A stretch of 40,365 nucleotides of DNA from Bdellovibrionales bacterium. Its GTDB lineage: Bacteria > Bdellovibrionota > UBA1018. Where the stretch lies: positions 1 through 40,365 of the forward strand of contig JAEUWC010000001.1 in assembly GCA_016786465.1 (NCBI GenBank), written 5' to 3'. Position numbers and translations under genes: made by a program. Shown here one piece after another: positions 2,200 through 33,571 of the stretch. The number at the start of each line of letters is the position of its first letter. The stretch's first letter is position 1. The notes under the pieces are model-generated. The model saw only the letters and a list, made by a program, of their open reading frames with translations, made no database searches and was not told where the DNA came from.

Positions 2200-3417
2200 T
2201 TATTTTCGAATGTCGGCAGCGTCTGGAAGTTTGACTTCGTTTAGAATGGCGTCGACGTCGACTTTCGAAGCGTCAAATCGAAGACCCGTGCCTTCTTCTT
2301 CCATTTGTTTTCGTCTTGCGGAAAGAAGCGCCTGGCGTTCCCAGTTCTTCTTCACTTTTGCATAAACCAAGTGAAGCAGCGGTTCTAGGCCACGTCCAGA
2401 TACTGCAGAAATGATGAACGGTTCGCCCGCTTCGGTTCCTTCGCCACGAACACGCGCAATTCGTTTTTTCAACGCATCGTGGGCGTTTTTCACTAGTTCA
2501 GGTTCGGATTCAAGGACGTCGACTTTGTTCAGCACAACGATTTCAGGCTTGTTCAAAAGCGATTCGTCATAAAGTTCCAGTTCGCGGCGAATGGCTTCGT
2601 ACCGGTAAACCAAATCGTCAACCGCACGCTGAAAGCTGTCTTCGCCTTTCTGGGTTGCGACTTCCAAAATGCGGGTCCCGTCCAAAAGGTGAATGAAGAC
2701 GCCCGTTCTTTCGATGTGTTTCAAGAAGCGGTGACCTAGTCCCAGGCCGGCATGTGCGCCTTCGATCAGCCCCGGGGTATCGGCCACCACGAAGCTTTTT
2801 TGTTCTGGCAGGCTGACGACGCCTAGGTTTGGAACCAAGGTCGTGAAAGCGTAGTCGGCGATTTTTGGGCGGGCCGCGCTGATTCTTGAAATCAAAGTCG
2901 ACTTGCCTGCATTCGGAAATCCAATGATTGCAGCGTCAGCCAGTAGCTTCAGTTCCAGCTTTAAACTTTTGAATTCGCCTTCTTCTCCGGGCTGCGCGAA
3001 TTTCGGCGCCTGAAAAGTCGAAGTGACGAAGTGTGCGTTTCCTTTTCCACCGCGGCCGCCTTTGCAGGCTTCCCAGGTGTCACCGTCTTCCATCAGTTCG
3101 GCTAGAACTTCGTTGGTTTCGGCGTCGTGGATGGTGGTTCCGGCTGGAACTTTGATTTCAATATCGTCGCCGTCACGTCCCGCTTTGTTTGCGCCAGACC
3201 CGTGCGAACCGTTGTCGGCTTTGTATTCGCGTTTGTAACGAAAGTCCTGCAGCGTTCCTAGTTGCGATGATGCGACAAAGATCACATCGCCGCCTTCACC
3301 ACCATCACCGCCATCTGGACCGCCACGCGGGATGAACTTTTCGCGACGAAAACTGACCGATCCGGGGCCACCCCGTCCGGCTGCTACTTGAATGGTTGCT
3401 TCGTCGATAAAACGCAT
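2200..3417 (-). CDS. obgE: GTPase ObgE/CgtA
   Basis: Obg is an essential GTPase acting in 50S ribosome maturation and stress signalling. Residues 1-158 form the glycine-rich Obg fold (RFIDEATIQVAAGRGGPG onward). The G domain follows, with G1 GFPNAGKST at 166-174, G3 DTPG at 213-216 followed by LIEGAHAGLGLG, G4 NKVD, and G5 SAVSGRG. At 405 residues it ends with a short charged tail and lacks the extra C-terminal OCT domain of some Gram-positive forms. The ATG is preceded by AGAGG at good spacing. It is the first gene of the obgE-nadD-lipoprotein-rsfS-rlmH run, with its own promoter candidate just upstream. Confidence 0.95.
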   Translation of the reverse strand: MRFIDEATIQVAAGRGGPGSVSFRREKFIPRGGPDGGDGGEGGDVIFVASSQLGTLQDFRYKREYKADNGSHGSGANKAGRDGDDIEIKVPAGTTIHDAETNEVLAELMEDGDTWEACKGGRGGKGNAHFVTSTFQAPKFAQPGEEGEFKSLKLELKLLADAAIIGFPNAGKSTLISRISAARPKIADYAFTTLVPNLGVVSLPEQKSFVVADTPGLIEGAHAGLGLGHRFLKHIERTGVFIHLLDGTRILEVATQKGEDSFQRAVDDLVYRYEAIRRELELYDESLLNKPEIVVLNKVDVLESEPELVKNAHDALKKRIARVRGEGTEAGEPFIISAVSGRGLEPLLHLVYAKVKKNWERQALLSARRKQMEEEGTGLRFDASKVDVDAILNEVKLPDAADIRK

Positions 3418-3438
3418 GAAAACCTCTGAGAGTTCGAG

Positions 3439-3467
3439 CTTTTATCTTAAATGAAGCAACGAGTCAA
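3439..3467 (-). promoter_or_regulatory. Candidate promoter of the obgE operon
   Basis: On the minus strand TTGACT (3467-3462) and TAAAAG (3444-3439) are separated by 17 bases, a sigma-70-like arrangement just upstream of obgE. The gap between obgE and the upstream exported-protein gene is only 55 bases. This was read by eye and has not been scored against a model. Confidence 0.4.
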
Positions 3468-3472
3468 AGAAG

Positions 3473-3922
3473 TTAGTATCCGGCCTTTTCCATCGTCGTG
3501 AACTTGAGGTGAACACAGCGCAAGGCTACAAATTCAGCAGATCCATAGGCACGGTTATATTCGAGGCTGATCTTGGGGGCTTTGGAATCAGGAATGGGCG
3601 AATGGAGATTCACGCTCGACCCGTCCATAAACAGGGTTTTGATATAAAACTGAAGCACGTCGGAACTTGGGACGATTGATACGCGCACGTTGTATCCAGG
3701 TACATCGACCCCTATGGCATTCGGAACCAGTTGGGGCATGGGTTTTAGGTCGGCTTCAACCGCTTGTGGAAGGGATCCGTCATTATAAAGAATCTTGCAG
3801 TGAAGGTCTGCGATTTCGGTCGCACTGGCGCTTCCTGGTGCAATGGCTGTAACTGCCGCAGAAAGGCCGATCCATCCAAGTACGCGAATTCCCCGACGAC
3901 TAAAACCCGAGAGCATTTTCAT
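3473..3922 (-). CDS. Exported protein of unknown function
   Basis: I do not recognise this family. The product is 149 residues from the ATG at 3922; a TTG two codons upstream is the alternative start. The N-terminus has basic residues, a hydrophobic core (GWIGLSAAVTAIAPG) and a likely signal-peptidase site after SASA. The mature part is about 110 residues, predicted to be mostly beta, with two cysteines (LHCKIL and ALRCVHL) that could form a disulphide. It is divergent from the E3-like toxin gene at 4029, and these two genes sit together inside an otherwise conserved ribosomal gene cluster. A periplasmic partner or protector of the toxin is possible, but only the position supports it. Confidence 0.6.
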   Translation of the reverse strand: MKMLSGFSRRGIRVLGWIGLSAAVTAIAPGSASATEIADLHCKILYNDGSLPQAVEADLKPMPQLVPNAIGVDVPGYNVRVSIVPSSDVLQFYIKTLFMDGSSVNLHSPIPDSKAPKISLEYNRAYGSAEFVALRCVHLKFTTMEKAGY

Positions 3923-3927
3923 GAGCA

Positions 3928-3957
3928 ATAATTAATGCATTGCAGCAATTATGTCAA
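3928..3957 (-). promoter_or_regulatory. Candidate promoter of the exported-protein gene
   Basis: TTGACA lies on the minus strand at 3957-3952, and an AT-rich stretch with AATTAT follows after about 18 bases. The predicted transcript would start at or within a few bases of the ATG at 3922, and no Shine-Dalgarno sequence is visible, so the message could be nearly leaderless. Confidence 0.35.
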
Positions 3958-3978
3958 CCCATTGTATTTCCAGGTTTT

Positions 3979-3999
3979 ACCTTACGTTAAAGCGTAGGT
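3979..3999. promoter_or_regulatory. Imperfect dyad in the divergent intergenic region
   Basis: ACCTTACG (3979-3986) and CGTAGGT (3993-3999) form an inverted repeat with one extra base, placed between the two divergent exported-protein genes. It could be an operator serving the toxin-like gene. Only its symmetry and position support this. Confidence 0.25.
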
Positions 4000-4028
4000 C
4001 AGCCGATACCTAGAACTGAGGACTGTAC

Positions 4029-4781
4029 ATGACTAGAATCATTGCCATTCTGCTATCCGTTGCTTCAATTGGGGTTACCAGCTGCAATCCCGCACTTGCC
4101 GGCCCTCGAGCCGCAAAAAAGGCCGCAGCCGTTCCGCTTGCGATTCCCGTGGCCATCGCGTCGATCAGTCTTCTAGAGGCGGCCGTCTATTGCGCCGCCG
4201 CCGCAGGTCTGATCACTGTCGTGCAATCTGAATCCTTTCAGCGTGAACTGAGCCAAACCCGTAGAGCAATCCAAAACATGTCGGCCGAAGCTTGGGCAAA
4301 GGCACGAGACGGAGTCGCCGCCTTGATTCAAAGAATCGAACATTCGCTTGAAAGAAGTGGTTGGGACATGAAGACCCGTTCCTGCAGTCGTCCGACCCAG
4401 GTATCACCGGCAATACCTTTGTCCGTTCCGATCACGCGAGTTCATACCGAATATTGCGGAAACCCCGCTGAATGCTGCAAGGATTTAGGAAACAAGTTTG
4501 CCAAGGACTTTGCTTCTTATGATCGCAACAAAAACACGATGAAGCGGATTTATCGCGGTTACGAAGGAAAGGGAAAGCTTCCCAAGAAAATGGATTGTTG
4601 TTTGGAATGGGATGGACAACACCACGGGTGGGAAATTTTCGACGATAAGGGCCGCCACATGGGTGAAAGATCCTGCCAAGATTTCTCGAATGACAATCCC
4701 TGCCAGGGTTCCGACCCGATGAAGTTCGGTAAGCACGTTAGCCCGAATTCGACGACACACAGGCCGCGAAGCTGCTTTTAG
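4029..4781 (+). CDS. Exported colicin-E3-like ribosomal RNase toxin (putative)
   Basis: The 250-residue product has an N-terminal export signal; VTSC at 16-19 could be a lipobox, or cleavage could follow ALA. A long hydrophobic segment spans about 33-65, a helical part about 68-112, and a Cys-rich C-terminal domain about 140-250. The stretch CLEWDGQHHGWEIFDDKGRH (191-210) aligns with the colicin E3 rRNase core (YEWDSQHG..E, then GxHLG). It keeps Asp195, His198 and Glu202 at the same spacing as E3 Asp510, His513 and Glu517. E3 cuts 16S rRNA in the decoding site. The E3 Arg545 equivalent is not obvious; DPMKFGKH occupies that region. GAGGA at 4018-4022 is a good ribosome-binding site. No cytoplasmic immunity gene is recognisable next door. 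The toxin call rests on this one motif block and the overall layout. Confidence 0.6.
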   Translation: MTRIIAILLSVASIGVTSCNPALAGPRAAKKAAAVPLAIPVAIASISLLEAAVYCAAAAGLITVVQSESFQRELSQTRRAIQNMSAEAWAKARDGVAALIQRIEHSLERSGWDMKTRSCSRPTQVSPAIPLSVPITRVHTEYCGNPAECCKDLGNKFAKDFASYDRNKNTMKRIYRGYEGKGKLPKKMDCCLEWDGQHHGWEIFDDKGRHMGERSCQDFSNDNPCQGSDPMKFGKHVSPNSTTHRPRSCF

Positions 4782-4835
4782 GTTTTCGCGGGTGACTTCG
4801 ATTGAGTTTCTAGTGTGAATTTGTGGGTACTAAAG

Positions 4836-4872
4836 AAAAGGGCCCGGTAACGATCCGTTACCAGGCCCTTTT
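4836..4872. terminator. Bidirectional intrinsic terminator
   Basis: A long stem pairs AAAAGGGCC and GGTAACG with CGTTACC and GGCCCTTTT around a short loop, with one mismatched base pair. T-rich tracts follow on both strands. It lies between the convergent toxin-like gene and rpmA and should end transcription from both sides. Confidence 0.85.
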
Positions 4873-4890
4873 GATTTTCTTTAAACCCAA

Positions 4891-5148
4891 TTAAGCAGCC
4901 GGATAAACCGAGATCTGCTTACGCTTTTTGTCGTAGCGTTCGAATTTAACGACGCCATCGATCATTGCGTACAAGGTCCAGTCGCGGCCAGTTCCCACGT
5001 TTTTGCCTGCGTGGAAAACGGTGCCGACTTGGCGAACCAGGATTTCTCCTGCGCCGACTTTTTGGCCACCGTAGCGCTTCACGCCACGCATCTTTGGATT
5101 ACTGTCACGTCCGTTTTTGGAACTACCACCGGCTTTTTTGTGTGCCAC
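4891..5148 (-). CDS. rpmA: 50S ribosomal protein bL27
   Basis: The 85-residue product begins [19 protein letters not shown] and continues [17 protein letters not shown], the standard bL27 sequence. Its flexible N-terminus reaches the peptidyl-transferase centre of the large subunit. The length is typical and no N-terminal cleavage extension (as in Firmicutes) is present. It lies 34 bases after rplU and ends just before the strong shared terminator. Confidence 0.97.
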
Positions 5149-5182: not shown

Positions 5183-5746
5183 TTAAGTCGTCTTCTTGGC
5201 GGCTTTAGCTGCTGGTTTCTTTTCAGTCTTCGCAGCGGTTTCAGGCTTTGCAGCCGATTCCTTCTTCGCTGTGCCCTTGTTGCCTGCTTTTTGAGCGGCA
5301 AGGCGCTTGCGTGATCCCAAAGTTTTCGGCGTGTGAGCCAAGCCTTTTGGAGCCAAGTACGAAATGAACGAATCCAATTTCGTCTTTTTATCCGCATCCG
5401 AAAGAGCCAGTTTTTCACCCGATCCGTTGTCCACCGAAGTGACTAGAACCTGAGTGTAGAATTGGCGATGTCCTTGGGTGCGGCGATACTGCTTGCGGCG
5501 TTTCATCTTGATGATCAGGATTTTGTCTCCCCGACCTTGTCCGACGATTTCGGCGCCCACAGATGCTCCGCTTAGGAGAGGCTTGCCGACGAAAATCGTG
5601 GAATTTTCAGCGCCAGGCTTGGATGCAAAAAGAATTTTATCAAACTTCACAGCCGAGCCGACATCACCTTCCAGTTTTTCAACTTGAAGAATATCACCCG
5701 GTTGAACGCGGTACTGTTTACCGCCCGTCTCGATTACAGCGTACAT
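5183..5746 (-). CDS. rplU: 50S ribosomal protein bL21 with long Lys/Ala-rich C-terminal tail
   Basis: Residues 1-108 are a complete bL21: [18 protein letters not shown] at the start, the [19 protein letters not shown]-binding stretch around 80-95, and VLVTSV at 100-105. The family is normally about 103 residues. Here about 78 extra residues follow, ending in Lys/Ala/Thr-rich repeats of the [13 protein letters not shown] kind, likely disordered and RNA-binding. It starts 34 bases after the stop of the upstream deaminase gene, so transcription may come through from the nucleoside operon or from a promoter at that junction. Confidence 0.96.
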
Positions 5747-30747: not shown

Positions 30748-31407
30748 TTACTTGGCTTTGGATTTCTTCTTTTTCTGGGTCCATTCGCCCGATTCGTCTT
30801 CAACCCATACGCCCTTAGGCGAATGGTCTTGGAAGGACTTGGCAAAGGACTTTTGGACCGAAGCCATGGAAACCTTGCAGGATCCCTTGCTGGTTTCTTC
30901 GACGACTTCTTCGTAAAAGTCCTTACGTAGCGCGTTAACTTTGGCCACCATCTTTTCGATCTTGGCTTTCATCAAGGGTTTCACCTGGGAAGGCGTCTTG
31001 ATGACCAAAAGGCCTTCTTTGTTTTCGCCCAAGGTTCCATCGGCTTCTAGGGGTTCAAGATCGCCTAGGCTGGATCCCATTTCGGAAGCCAACTGCTTGG
31101 CTTTGGTGCCGTTGGTGACCATTTCGCAAGGTTTTGCAGGTGCTTCGTCGGCGTAGACTTTGGGAATCCCCAGAAGTTCGACGGGTCGAAACCAACTGGT
31201 GGGTTTCTTTGCGGCTTCTTCTTCATTGGGTTTATCGCCGTCTTTTTGTTTCGAGCGTTCCTTGGCCTTATAAATGTCGCGGACATAGTCATCAGCGGCC
31301 CGCTGAACTGCAGATTCAGGAAGATTGATGTTCAGCGTGAGGCAAGCGGACAGAACGAAAAAAGGAAGGTAAGCAGTCAGGGTCCAGATTTTCTTCGTCT
31401 TCTTCAT
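30748..31407 (-). CDS. DUF1318 / YdbL-like lipoprotein
   Basis: The 219-residue product has a lipobox VLSAC (Cys22). A short conserved stretch follows, NINLPESAVQRAADDYVRDIY, like the region after the lipidation site in DUF1318 and YnbE-type proteins. The C-terminal third is the DUF1318 (YdbL) pattern: VNALRKDFYEEVVEE, then a short helix and GVWVEDESGEWTQKKK. The middle is Lys/Glu-rich and probably a flexible linker. In E. coli ydbH-ynbE-ydbL form one operon acting in phospholipid transport to the outer membrane. Here this gene overlaps the YdbH-like gene by 92 bases and may combine the YnbE and YdbL roles (inference). The ATG at 31407 fits the signal peptide. Confidence 0.6.
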   Translation of the reverse strand: MKKTKKIWTLTAYLPFFVLSACLTLNINLPESAVQRAADDYVRDIYKAKERSKQKDGDKPNEEEAAKKPTSWFRPVELLGIPKVYADEAPAKPCEMVTNGTKAKQLASEMGSSLGDLEPLEADGTLGENKEGLLVIKTPSQVKPLMKAKIEKMVAKVNALRKDFYEEVVEETSKGSCKVSMASVQKSFAKSFQDHSPKGVWVEDESGEWTQKKKKSKAK

Positions 31408-33571
31408 CGTCAGTTTCCTCGTCTTCTTCTTCGGATTTGCGCTTCACTTTCCCGGTGACCGCATCAAAGCGTTCGCGGAAGACAGCAAGCATTTTGTAAA
31501 AGGCTGAAGCATCCATCACAGCTGGATAGCGCGAAGTTTTCAAGACAAAATCAAACATCCCGCTATCGATCAGCATCCGTTTGCGATCGGGATAGACCCC
31601 GTTGACGGGAAGGTCTTCGGGGTCCGTGGTTTCTAGCACGATGCTTCCTTCGTCCAGGCGAACTTTAACGCCTGCGCGCGTGACGTCGTAGCCTCCGGCC
31701 AGTTGACTGGGCAGGCCGAACAAAAACCATTCTCCGAAGTCGCGCGCCATCTTGGGAAGGCCCATCCCGTCCATGTCGACCAAGGTGTAAATCATCGTTT
31801 TCATTGCTTTGCCCGAAAACGGGATCTTCTTTCCCTTCGTAGGTACCATTTCGAATAAAGCGTCATAGCGGGTGGGAAGGTCTTTCTGCAGCACGACTTC
31901 TTTGGCGTATCCGCGCAAGAAACCCTGAATGGATCCCACGCCTAGCCAAGGGCCCATTTCTTCAAGGCGGATTTTATCCCATTCAATGTCGACCTGGGAT
32001 TCAGGAACATCGGTCTGCCAATCAAAAACGGCTGGATGGTCAATCTTGACGTAACCGCCAAAAAGATCTGCGCGCAGCGATCCATCCAATTGTATGGAAT
32101 CCTGATCGATCTGGATTCTTGGAATTCGAACCCAAGCTTTTTCTGTTTCAGGAAATCGCGCTGAATTTTTGTTGGGACTTTTGAAGCAAATCAGGTCCAT
32201 CAGTTTCTGGATCGGAACCGGTTCAAGTTCCATTCCGGTGCTTAGACTAAAGTTGGGAAGCTGGATCTGGTTCTTGAATTTGCGAAGCTTGATCTTGAAG
32301 TCCGGGCTTTCGATCCTGGGCAATTCGTCCGTGGTCAGTCTTCCGGCAAGCCGCAAGGGTTGGATCGTCGGATTTCCAGTAGCCTCGAATCCGAATTTCC
32401 AAGTCGGAATTCTAATCCCAACCTTTCGGAAAGATCCCTTCTTGATTGAAAAGCTTGCACCACTGGATCGAACTTGAACTTCGTCTCCGTTCCTTTTCAC
32501 GTCGATGGGCAAGTTCAGATTCAGGCCTTCAATCGAAGCCATCAGGCTTTTTAGGCCCGCAGACAGGTTTTCGACCTTCAGCTGAATTTGGCCGCCTTGC
32601 GGATCGCCTTCGACTTGAAGCCGTAAGCTTCCAGTCGGAACGATCCATTTCAAGAACTTGGGTTTGGGAAGGCTATTTGAAAGAGAAGCTGCCAGCCACT
32701 CCCACATTTTTTTCATCGATTGAATTCGGAAATCGATCGTGCCCTTTTTTGCGCTGACGACGGCGTTCAGTCCTGGTGCCGTGATCCGGGCCTGGGGCGT
32801 TGATGAATCCAACTGAATATCCAGCGGCACCGAGGTCAACTTCGTTTCGAAGTAAAGCGTACCCATTCCTGCTGCGATTTGCTTCGCAGTCGCCCGGGTC
32901 TTTAGATCCTGGCTGAATTCAAATGGAAAGAAATCGACGGTGCCTTGGGATTTGATTTCAAGTCCGTCTAACTGCGCAAGCGGAGCGTCTTCAGCCTGGC
33001 TGGCTTTCCATAGAATTTCACGGACGGAAAAGTTTGAATTCCACGGCGAAGGGTTTTCATCGTCGTAAATCCAGGACGCTTTGAGGGAGAAGTCTTTTGC
33101 CGTGATTCCCAAAGATTTCAACTGGATGATTTTTGAACTGATTTCGACCCCGATATCTTCGATTTCAGTCAGGTGCGCTTCAAGATCGCCGAAGAATTTT
33201 CCGTCGATTTCAAATTCGTCTTTTGGGTCGTTCAGATCCAATTTGATCTTGATCTTGGGTTGATACTGGGTGCGGTAACTTCCTGTTTCGGTTCGCTGCG
33301 ACGACAGAATTCCCGAAAGCGAAGCCGATCCCAGCGCATTTTTCAGTCGAATCGTAAGCCGCGCGGGCTTTCCTTGAATGATGTCGGACCAAAGTGTGTC
33401 CAGGCTGACTTCCTGGATTTCAAAGGGCAGGTCGCTTTGGACGGACTGGATGGCTTTGGCGATCAGTTGATCCTGAATTCTTTTTTGAATCGGTTTTCCC
33501 AAAAAAAGAAACCCGACGAAGGCCGCAAACAGAATTCCAAAAGCGATCCCAAGGCCGCGTTTAATATTCAA
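31316..33571 (-). CDS. AsmA/YdbH-like intermembrane transport protein
   Basis: The product has 751 residues with a single N-terminal membrane anchor (about 6-26, IAFGILFAAFVGFLFLG). A long periplasmic part follows, made of alternating short beta strands without cysteines apart from CF. This is the style of AsmA-like bridge proteins (TamB, YhdP, YdbH) that carry phospholipid between membranes. The pairing with a DUF1318 lipoprotein supports YdbH in particular. The C-terminal ~50 residues are acidic (EEEDEETDDEEDEE) and are encoded where the next gene begins, so they may be a by-product of the overlap. Its start overlaps the upstream phosphatase-fold gene by 11 bases. Confidence 0.6.
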   Translation of the reverse strand: MNIKRGLGIAFGILFAAFVGFLFLGKPIQKRIQDQLIAKAIQSVQSDLPFEIQEVSLDTLWSDIIQGKPARLTIRLKNALGSASLSGILSSQRTETGSYRTQYQPKIKIKLDLNDPKDEFEIDGKFFGDLEAHLTEIEDIGVEISSKIIQLKSLGITAKDFSLKASWIYDDENPSPWNSNFSVREILWKASQAEDAPLAQLDGLEIKSQGTVDFFPFEFSQDLKTRATAKQIAAGMGTLYFETKLTSVPLDIQLDSSTPQARITAPGLNAVVSAKKGTIDFRIQSMKKMWEWLAASLSNSLPKPKFLKWIVPTGSLRLQVEGDPQGGQIQLKVENLSAGLKSLMASIEGLNLNLPIDVKRNGDEVQVRSSGASFSIKKGSFRKVGIRIPTWKFGFEATGNPTIQPLRLAGRLTTDELPRIESPDFKIKLRKFKNQIQLPNFSLSTGMELEPVPIQKLMDLICFKSPNKNSARFPETEKAWVRIPRIQIDQDSIQLDGSLRADLFGGYVKIDHPAVFDWQTDVPESQVDIEWDKIRLEEMGPWLGVGSIQGFLRGYAKEVVLQKDLPTRYDALFEMVPTKGKKIPFSGKAMKTMIYTLVDMDGMGLPKMARDFGEWFLFGLPSQLAGGYDVTRAGVKVRLDEGSIVLETTDPEDLPVNGVYPDRKRMLIDSGMFDFVLKTSRYPAVMDASAFYKMLAVFRERFDAVTGKVKRKSEEEDEETDDEEDEENLDPDCLPSFFRSVRLPHAEHQSS

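Follow-up and report, generated by a model that had tools for sequence, protein, structure and literature searches.

How might a bacterium carry a putative ribosome-cleaving enzyme with no immunity gene beside it? The question is raised by P0001, a protein encoded within the window analysed here, a 40,365-nucleotide stretch of a Bdellovibrionales genome. A sequence-only reading had taken its gene to encode an exported protein ending in a colicin E3-like domain. The 250-residue reading frame is present at 4029-4781 on the plus strand as described.

P0001 lies in an insertion between rpmA and obgE

The gap between rpmA and obgE measures 1473 bp in the window's genome, compared with 9-221 bp in 14 relatives. 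The features of this region are as follows.

2200..3417, minus strand: obgE, flanking gene (PF01018)
3418..4890, no strand: two-gene insertion between obgE and rpmA, from comparison of the gap with relatives
3473..3928, minus strand: orphan exported protein of 151 aa, divergent to P0001; candidate partner or bystander
4029..4781, plus strand: P0001, 250 aa, exported, with a C-terminal colicin E3-like domain (translation, and homologues in five Bdellovibrionota MAGs)
4836..4873, no strand: hairpin flanked on either side by T-runs, probably a terminator acting in both directions (fold energies on both strands)
4891..5148, minus strand: rpmA, ribosomal protein L27, flanking gene (PF01016)
5183..5746, minus strand: rplU, in the same window

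A usually tight junction has been opened by a 1.47 kb insert holding two orphan genes of normal GC content. The GC content of the P0001 gene equals that of the window, so its composition bears no sign of recent import. A Shine-Dalgarno-like GAGG is found 5' of the P0001 ATG. By direct search, P0001 was confined to the window's genome among 58 close genomes, and the orphan at 3473-3928 to the same genome among 40 searched. The orphan product belongs to no Pfam family and is apparently exported. The hairpin at 4836-4873, with energies of -26.3 and -30.5 kcal/mol (one value per strand), is probably a bidirectional terminator common to P0001 and rpmA; it was absent from the output of a consensus terminator scanner. 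Elsewhere in the window, a 751 aa reading frame on the minus strand (31316-33571) had no Pfam match at 1e-5.

An export signal and a hydrophobic segment precede the C-terminal domain

P0001 begins with MTRIIAILLSVASIGVTSCNPALAGP and continues through a hydrophobic Ala-rich segment and an amphipathic helical stretch to a cysteine-rich domain starting at residue 143. Its features are listed below.

4029..4100, plus strand: export signal, residues 1-24 (by inspection)
4128..4226, plus strand: hydrophobic Ala-rich segment, residues 34-66 (alignments), with an amphipathic helical region beyond it to about residue 110
4455..4778, plus strand: cysteine-rich E3-like domain, residues 143-250 (family alignments, cysteine counts, profiles and fold searches)
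4605..4664, plus strand: catalytic core EWDGQHHGWEIFDDKGRHMG with D195, H198, E202 and H210, invariant in the family

This layout supports the proposal that an export signal, here judged by inspection only, and a hydrophobic segment stand in place of the receptor and translocation domains of a colicin. Two cleavage readings of the signal are possible: ALA|GP would be a site for signal peptidase I, and VTSC (residues 16-19) would be a lipobox. Signal peptides are present in the family homologues described below and the lipobox cysteine is missing from them, making the signal peptidase I site the more likely reading on alignment. The predicted model places helices at residues 38-58, 64-82 and 86-109, and the hydrophobic segment has a putative role in membrane passage. 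When the N-terminal module was searched in 291 genomes, the matches comprised the known family members and three weak ones, which gives no evidence that the module carries other toxin domains. Nuclease bacteriocins have been defined by a length of at least 350 residues and by a toxin gene that an immunity gene directly follows (PMC5536347). At 250 aa, with no receptor or translocation Pfam domain, P0001 falls outside the size and domain limits of that class.

The C-terminal domain is a predicted branch of the colicin E3 superfamily

D195, H198 and E202 sit within CCLEWDGQHHGWEIFDDKGRHMG, at positions 0, +3 and +7, and are followed by a GRHMG motif. The spacing is that of D510, H513 and E517 in colicin E3, as the sequence-only reading had held. 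A second histidine conserved across Tox-ColE3 domains was named by Zhang et al. (PMC3482391), and H210 corresponds to it. Thus both the catalytic Asp/His(+3)/Glu(+7) of Tox-ColE3 and its second histidine after the core are present in P0001.

Direct searches with P0001 returned nothing convincing from Pfam, NCBIfam, PHROGs or PDB, nor from plasmids, contigs of genomes or the 57 close relatives. Plasmid matches were rejected, being mostly chance similarity to the Ala-rich N-terminus. Relatives emerged only when the C-terminal domain (108 aa) was used as the query against the 369 genomes of the phylum, giving five further family members (G297, G325, G315, G296 and G221). The same five, as loci L073-L077, were recovered with the motif CC[LF]EWDx[LQV]H from an 84,980-species collection. 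All are Bdellovibrionaceae, Bdellovibrionales or Bdellovibrio by record name, from which their phylum assignment is taken. Neither the C-terminal 80 residues of P0001 nor the family profile found anything convincing or any member, respectively, in viral contigs. Judged by these sequence searches of 369 phylum genomes and the 84,980-species collection, the family is small and confined to Bdellovibrionota.

Non-conservation of the triad in close homologues, the outcome named beforehand as counting against an E3 assignment, was looked for, and D, H and E proved invariant in the six members. Also common to all six are C150, C190, C191, E193 and W194, together with H210, G212, C216, C225, H244, P246 and R247. 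The cysteines picked out by the sequence-only reading form a conserved framework of seven or eight: the P0001 domain has eight (143, 149, 150, 190, 191, 216, 225 and 249), as do five of the six members in all, and the member cut by a contig end has seven.

Against the PF09000 (Cytotoxic) profile, trimmed P0001 scored 13 bits, the cut-off being 22, and the full-length protein gave no match. Two homologues, however, exceeded this cut-off (L075, 27.4 bits; L073, 22.9 bits). An HMM built from three independently found E3 domains scored P0001 at 18.8 bits, whilst the top score among 30,000 shuffles was 12.3, a value that five members of the six-member family exceeded and one (12.2) about equalled. 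Conversely, the family HMM scored colicin E3 at 18.8 bits against 9.6 for shuffles, and hhalign of the family and E3 profiles gave 96.8% with E 2.6e-10. The two profiles therefore recognise each other. Furthermore, when run against whole genomes, the family profile picked up E3 domains of the classical type (G113, 1.6e-6; G059, 2.5e-5; G013, 4.4e-4). The N-terminal stretch of the P0001 domain aligned poorly with E3.

The predicted models of P0001 are weak (pLDDT 61 and 69; pTM 0.39 and 0.63). In the model of the C-terminal domain (pLDDT 68.8, pTM 0.63), short helices are followed by five strands. A Foldseek comparison with colicin E3, proposed in advance as a check, was favourable in rank and weak in score: E3 chains held ranks 1-4 against PDB, with low scores (best E 0.054). 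With VIA-align, E3 chains took five of the first six places, the best at Z 4.5 over 75 aligned residues and 3.3 A, a value below 8 that can reflect a common structural arrangement and that was tied by an unrelated chain, 7lbm_j. After the E3 chains came 4ntq (Z 3.9), the CdiA-CT toxin of Enterobacter cloacae, an E3-like 16S rRNase delivered to bacteria. The fold comparison of the modelled domain leans towards E3, short of proof.

The P0001 domain shares with the colicin E3 cytotoxic domain (PF09000; Tox-ColE3, Zhang et al. 2012) an EWDxQH core, the D/H/E spacing, a second conserved His followed by xG and a C-terminal position, and E3 ranks first among its fold matches, at weak scores. Unlike colicin E3, P0001 possesses eight cysteines, a CC ahead of LEWD and an extra Cys-containing stretch beyond GxHxG; it also lacks an Im3-like immunity gene and the colicin receptor and translocation domains. 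On the evidence of alignments and profiles, we assign the domain to a divergent, cysteine-rich branch of the colicin E3 rRNase superfamily, bearing out the proposed domain identity. Its rRNase activity is predicted from this relation.

Missing immunity accompanies cysteine-rich domains

Between the P0001 stop codon at 4781 and rpmA, the largest plus-strand reading frame encodes 23 aa and no suitable immunity reading frame was found. P0001 ends at the probable bidirectional terminator, and there is no space for a downstream immunity gene of the kind that nuclease bacteriocins possess. In the window's genome, DUF7683 and DUF6980 had no match and Cloacin_immun had a 12.2-bit match only, under the cut-off. 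The statement that no immunity gene is visible thus stands for the known E3 immunity families, none of which rises above cut-off; it is qualified by the divergent exported orphan in the same insertion.

Wherever a classical E3 domain of this phylum was resolved, a small cytoplasmic reading frame overlaps or directly follows the toxin gene, even though most of these domains are exported or in lipoproteins. DUF7683 lies directly 3' of the E3 domain in four loci and DUF6980 in L003 (Pfam-tested); L054, L087 and L099 have the same downstream arrangement as judged by eye, the L099 toxin frame appearing broken. The DUF7683 proteins, small, cytoplasmic and directly after E3-type toxins, are encoded at:

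L002, 938-1495
L039, 1268-1516
L053, 1211-1450
L056, 191-451

It is very likely that DUF7683 serves as immunity to E3, a role of which no mention was found in the literature searched. DUF6980 is a similar case and looks like an E3 immunity family. L099 (1166-1650) is a second E3 copy in genome G129; the DUF7683-like gene that goes with it is intact, which would fit an immunity gene that has outlasted its toxin. At three of the loci the product is a lipoprotein some 480-505 aa long that has a hydrophobic segment and ends in a PF09000 domain, a SitA-like plan, yet in Bdellovibrionota:

L002, 1498-2934
L039, 1516-2943
L056, 439-1953

E3 domains with an adjoining DUF7683 or DUF6980 gene have at most one cysteine. 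No such gene adjoins those with at least four cysteines, namely P0001, L074-L077 and two shorter ones, L052 and L100; L073, cut by a contig end, was excluded from this contrast. The association of cysteine richness with missing immunity gave a Fisher p of 1.6e-4 on counts assigned by hand, and this is overstated since related lineages are not independent (L053 and L054, for example, share 80% identity). L052 (557-1644) and L100 (4-814) are short exported cysteine-bearing E3 proteins with a common upstream gene for a hydrophobic protein (phmmer E 3.6e-10); having no DUF7683 neighbour, they are possibly a two-gene delivery version.

The sequence-only reading had argued that an exported rRNase would be harmless at home without immunity. 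As other exported E3 proteins of the phylum carry an immunity-like gene, export alone fails to explain its absence from P0001; the argument would hold only for the cysteine-rich proteins, which go without one. The pattern is suggestive only, but missing immunity goes with the cysteine-rich domain rather than with export, and a need for oxidation in folding could explain it.

Some relatives have an exported neighbour

In L076 and L077, an exported reading frame (115 and 122 aa respectively, 41% identical to each other) follows the toxin gene and overlaps it. In G297, whose toxin contig ends within the toxin gene, a weak homologue of this partner opens contig C254 at base 18 (L103, 18-419); from the contig ends, toxin and partner homologue may be neighbours. 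No exported partner adjoins the toxin in L074 or L075. The window's genome (G000) has no member of the L076/L077 partner family, and the orphan at 3473-3928 has no detectable similarity to that partner or to genes around the other loci. An exported partner in L076 and L077, perhaps in G297 also, suggests that some protection is still needed there. An extracytoplasmic partner for P0001 is possible, as in two relatives, and perhaps in a third, the toxin gene is directly followed by one for a small exported protein. Together with the exported orphan beside P0001, these cases mean that the reading of P0001 as free of immunity is not final.

A compartment-based explanation and its rivals

The explanation we prefer, to which we give about an even chance, is that P0001 is a Sec-exported effector, an rRNase of the E3 superfamily whose framework of seven or eight cysteines makes folding dependent on oxidation and so replaces cytoplasmic immunity. 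P0001 would remain unfolded in the reducing cytoplasm of the producer, be exported by Sec as an unfolded chain and fold into its active form on being oxidised within the envelope or beyond it, presumably through disulphides among its cysteines. The producer's ribosomes would never meet the active enzyme, so that the usual cytoplasmic immunity protein would be unneeded. The hydrophobic segment would probably aid contact with, or crossing of, a target membrane, and D195, H198, E202 and H210 would cut 16S rRNA at the decoding centre of the target, most plausibly another bacterium and, given the phylum, prey. Self-protection by compartment, delivery and a prey target are thus all conjectural parts of this account. 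The chief difficulty is that the cytoplasm of a living target is reducing and could undo disulphides, which is hard to square with a cytoplasmic ribosome target; it would be solved if the bonds were buried, the prey dying or the role digestive. Type VI effectors that depend on the target's DsbA offer a precedent for activity only after disulphide formation, and these keep immunity proteins (PMC5792426).

It is less likely that P0001 is instead an exported toxin whose folded domain is bound in the envelope by an extracytoplasmic immunity partner, as by Bd3460, which protects Bdellovibrio in its own periplasm against its endopeptidases (PMC4686830). Candidates are the exported 115-122 aa protein of L076/L077, with its overlapping genes and its G297 homologue, and the product of the window's orphan, which shares the insertion with P0001. 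The orphan, however, is divergent and not co-transcribed with P0001 and does not resemble the L076/L077 protein, of which the window's genome holds no relative; L074 and L075, moreover, have no such neighbour. Bd3459/Bd3460 and P0001 are alike in involving an exported effector of Bdellovibrionota, with Bd3460 standing guard in the periplasm (PMC4686830), but the former pair a cell-wall endopeptidase with an ankyrin inhibitor, an enzyme of another kind, and no such partner was identified for P0001.

That P0001 is a disulphide-stabilised digestive ribonuclease, secreted onto dead prey or debris to free RNA for reuse, seems improbable. Some members of the phylum have a feeding style that would fit such an enzyme, the reading suits a cysteine-rich extracellular protein without cytoplasmic immunity and the disulphide paradox disappears; but E3-type enzymes make one specific cut, which is badly suited to bulk digestion, and the hydrophobic segment points to membrane passage. 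Low overall identity, the poorly aligned N-terminal part of the domain, weak fold scores and an RNase activity predicted from sequence would also accommodate a conserved E3-like core that acts on something else or is no RNase at all, as in a binding protein of the envelope whose cysteines hold metal. We consider this very unlikely, as the few invariant residues include exactly the catalytic D, H and E and the second H. The poorest account is that the motif resembles E3 by chance; full-length P0001 has no significant sequence match in Pfam, NCBIfam or PDB, but with homologues above the PF09000 cut-off, P0001 above all 30,000 shuffles and E3 heading the fold searches, this is largely refuted.

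Comparison with known systems and implications

The E. cloacae CdiA-CT (4ntq) appears among the weak fold matches of P0001, but CdiA-CT is delivered by the giant CdiA and has a CdiI immunity protein; we know of no cysteine framework in CdiA-CT. SitA of Myxococcus is a lipoprotein toxin with a SitI immunity gene that is transferred by outer-membrane exchange (PMC5562445, PMC8546572). Both SitA and P0001 are exported and modular, with a C-terminal nuclease domain (predicted for P0001); unlike SitA, P0001 is probably no lipoprotein and has no adjacent downstream sitI-type gene on the same strand. A SitA-type identity for P0001, raised by lipoprotein E3 relatives such as L002, was dropped for want of a clear lipobox or immunity gene.

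Bdellovibrionota are absent from the phyletic list given for Tox-ColE3 in a 2012 survey (PMC3482391). With P0001 and its relatives, a family of predicted ribosome-targeting enzymes would stand in a phylum known for predation, and DUF7683 and DUF6980, as likely E3 immunity families, would be of use for annotation. E3-class nuclease toxins are recognised partly by an obligatory immunity protein. We tentatively suggest, at somewhat less than an even chance, a lineage in which a cysteine framework that folds only outside the cytoplasm serves instead of an immunity protein, giving predators an antidote-free antibacterial rRNase. If this is true, the immunity-less, cysteine-framework branch would be a second safe way to carry a ribosome-attacking enzyme.
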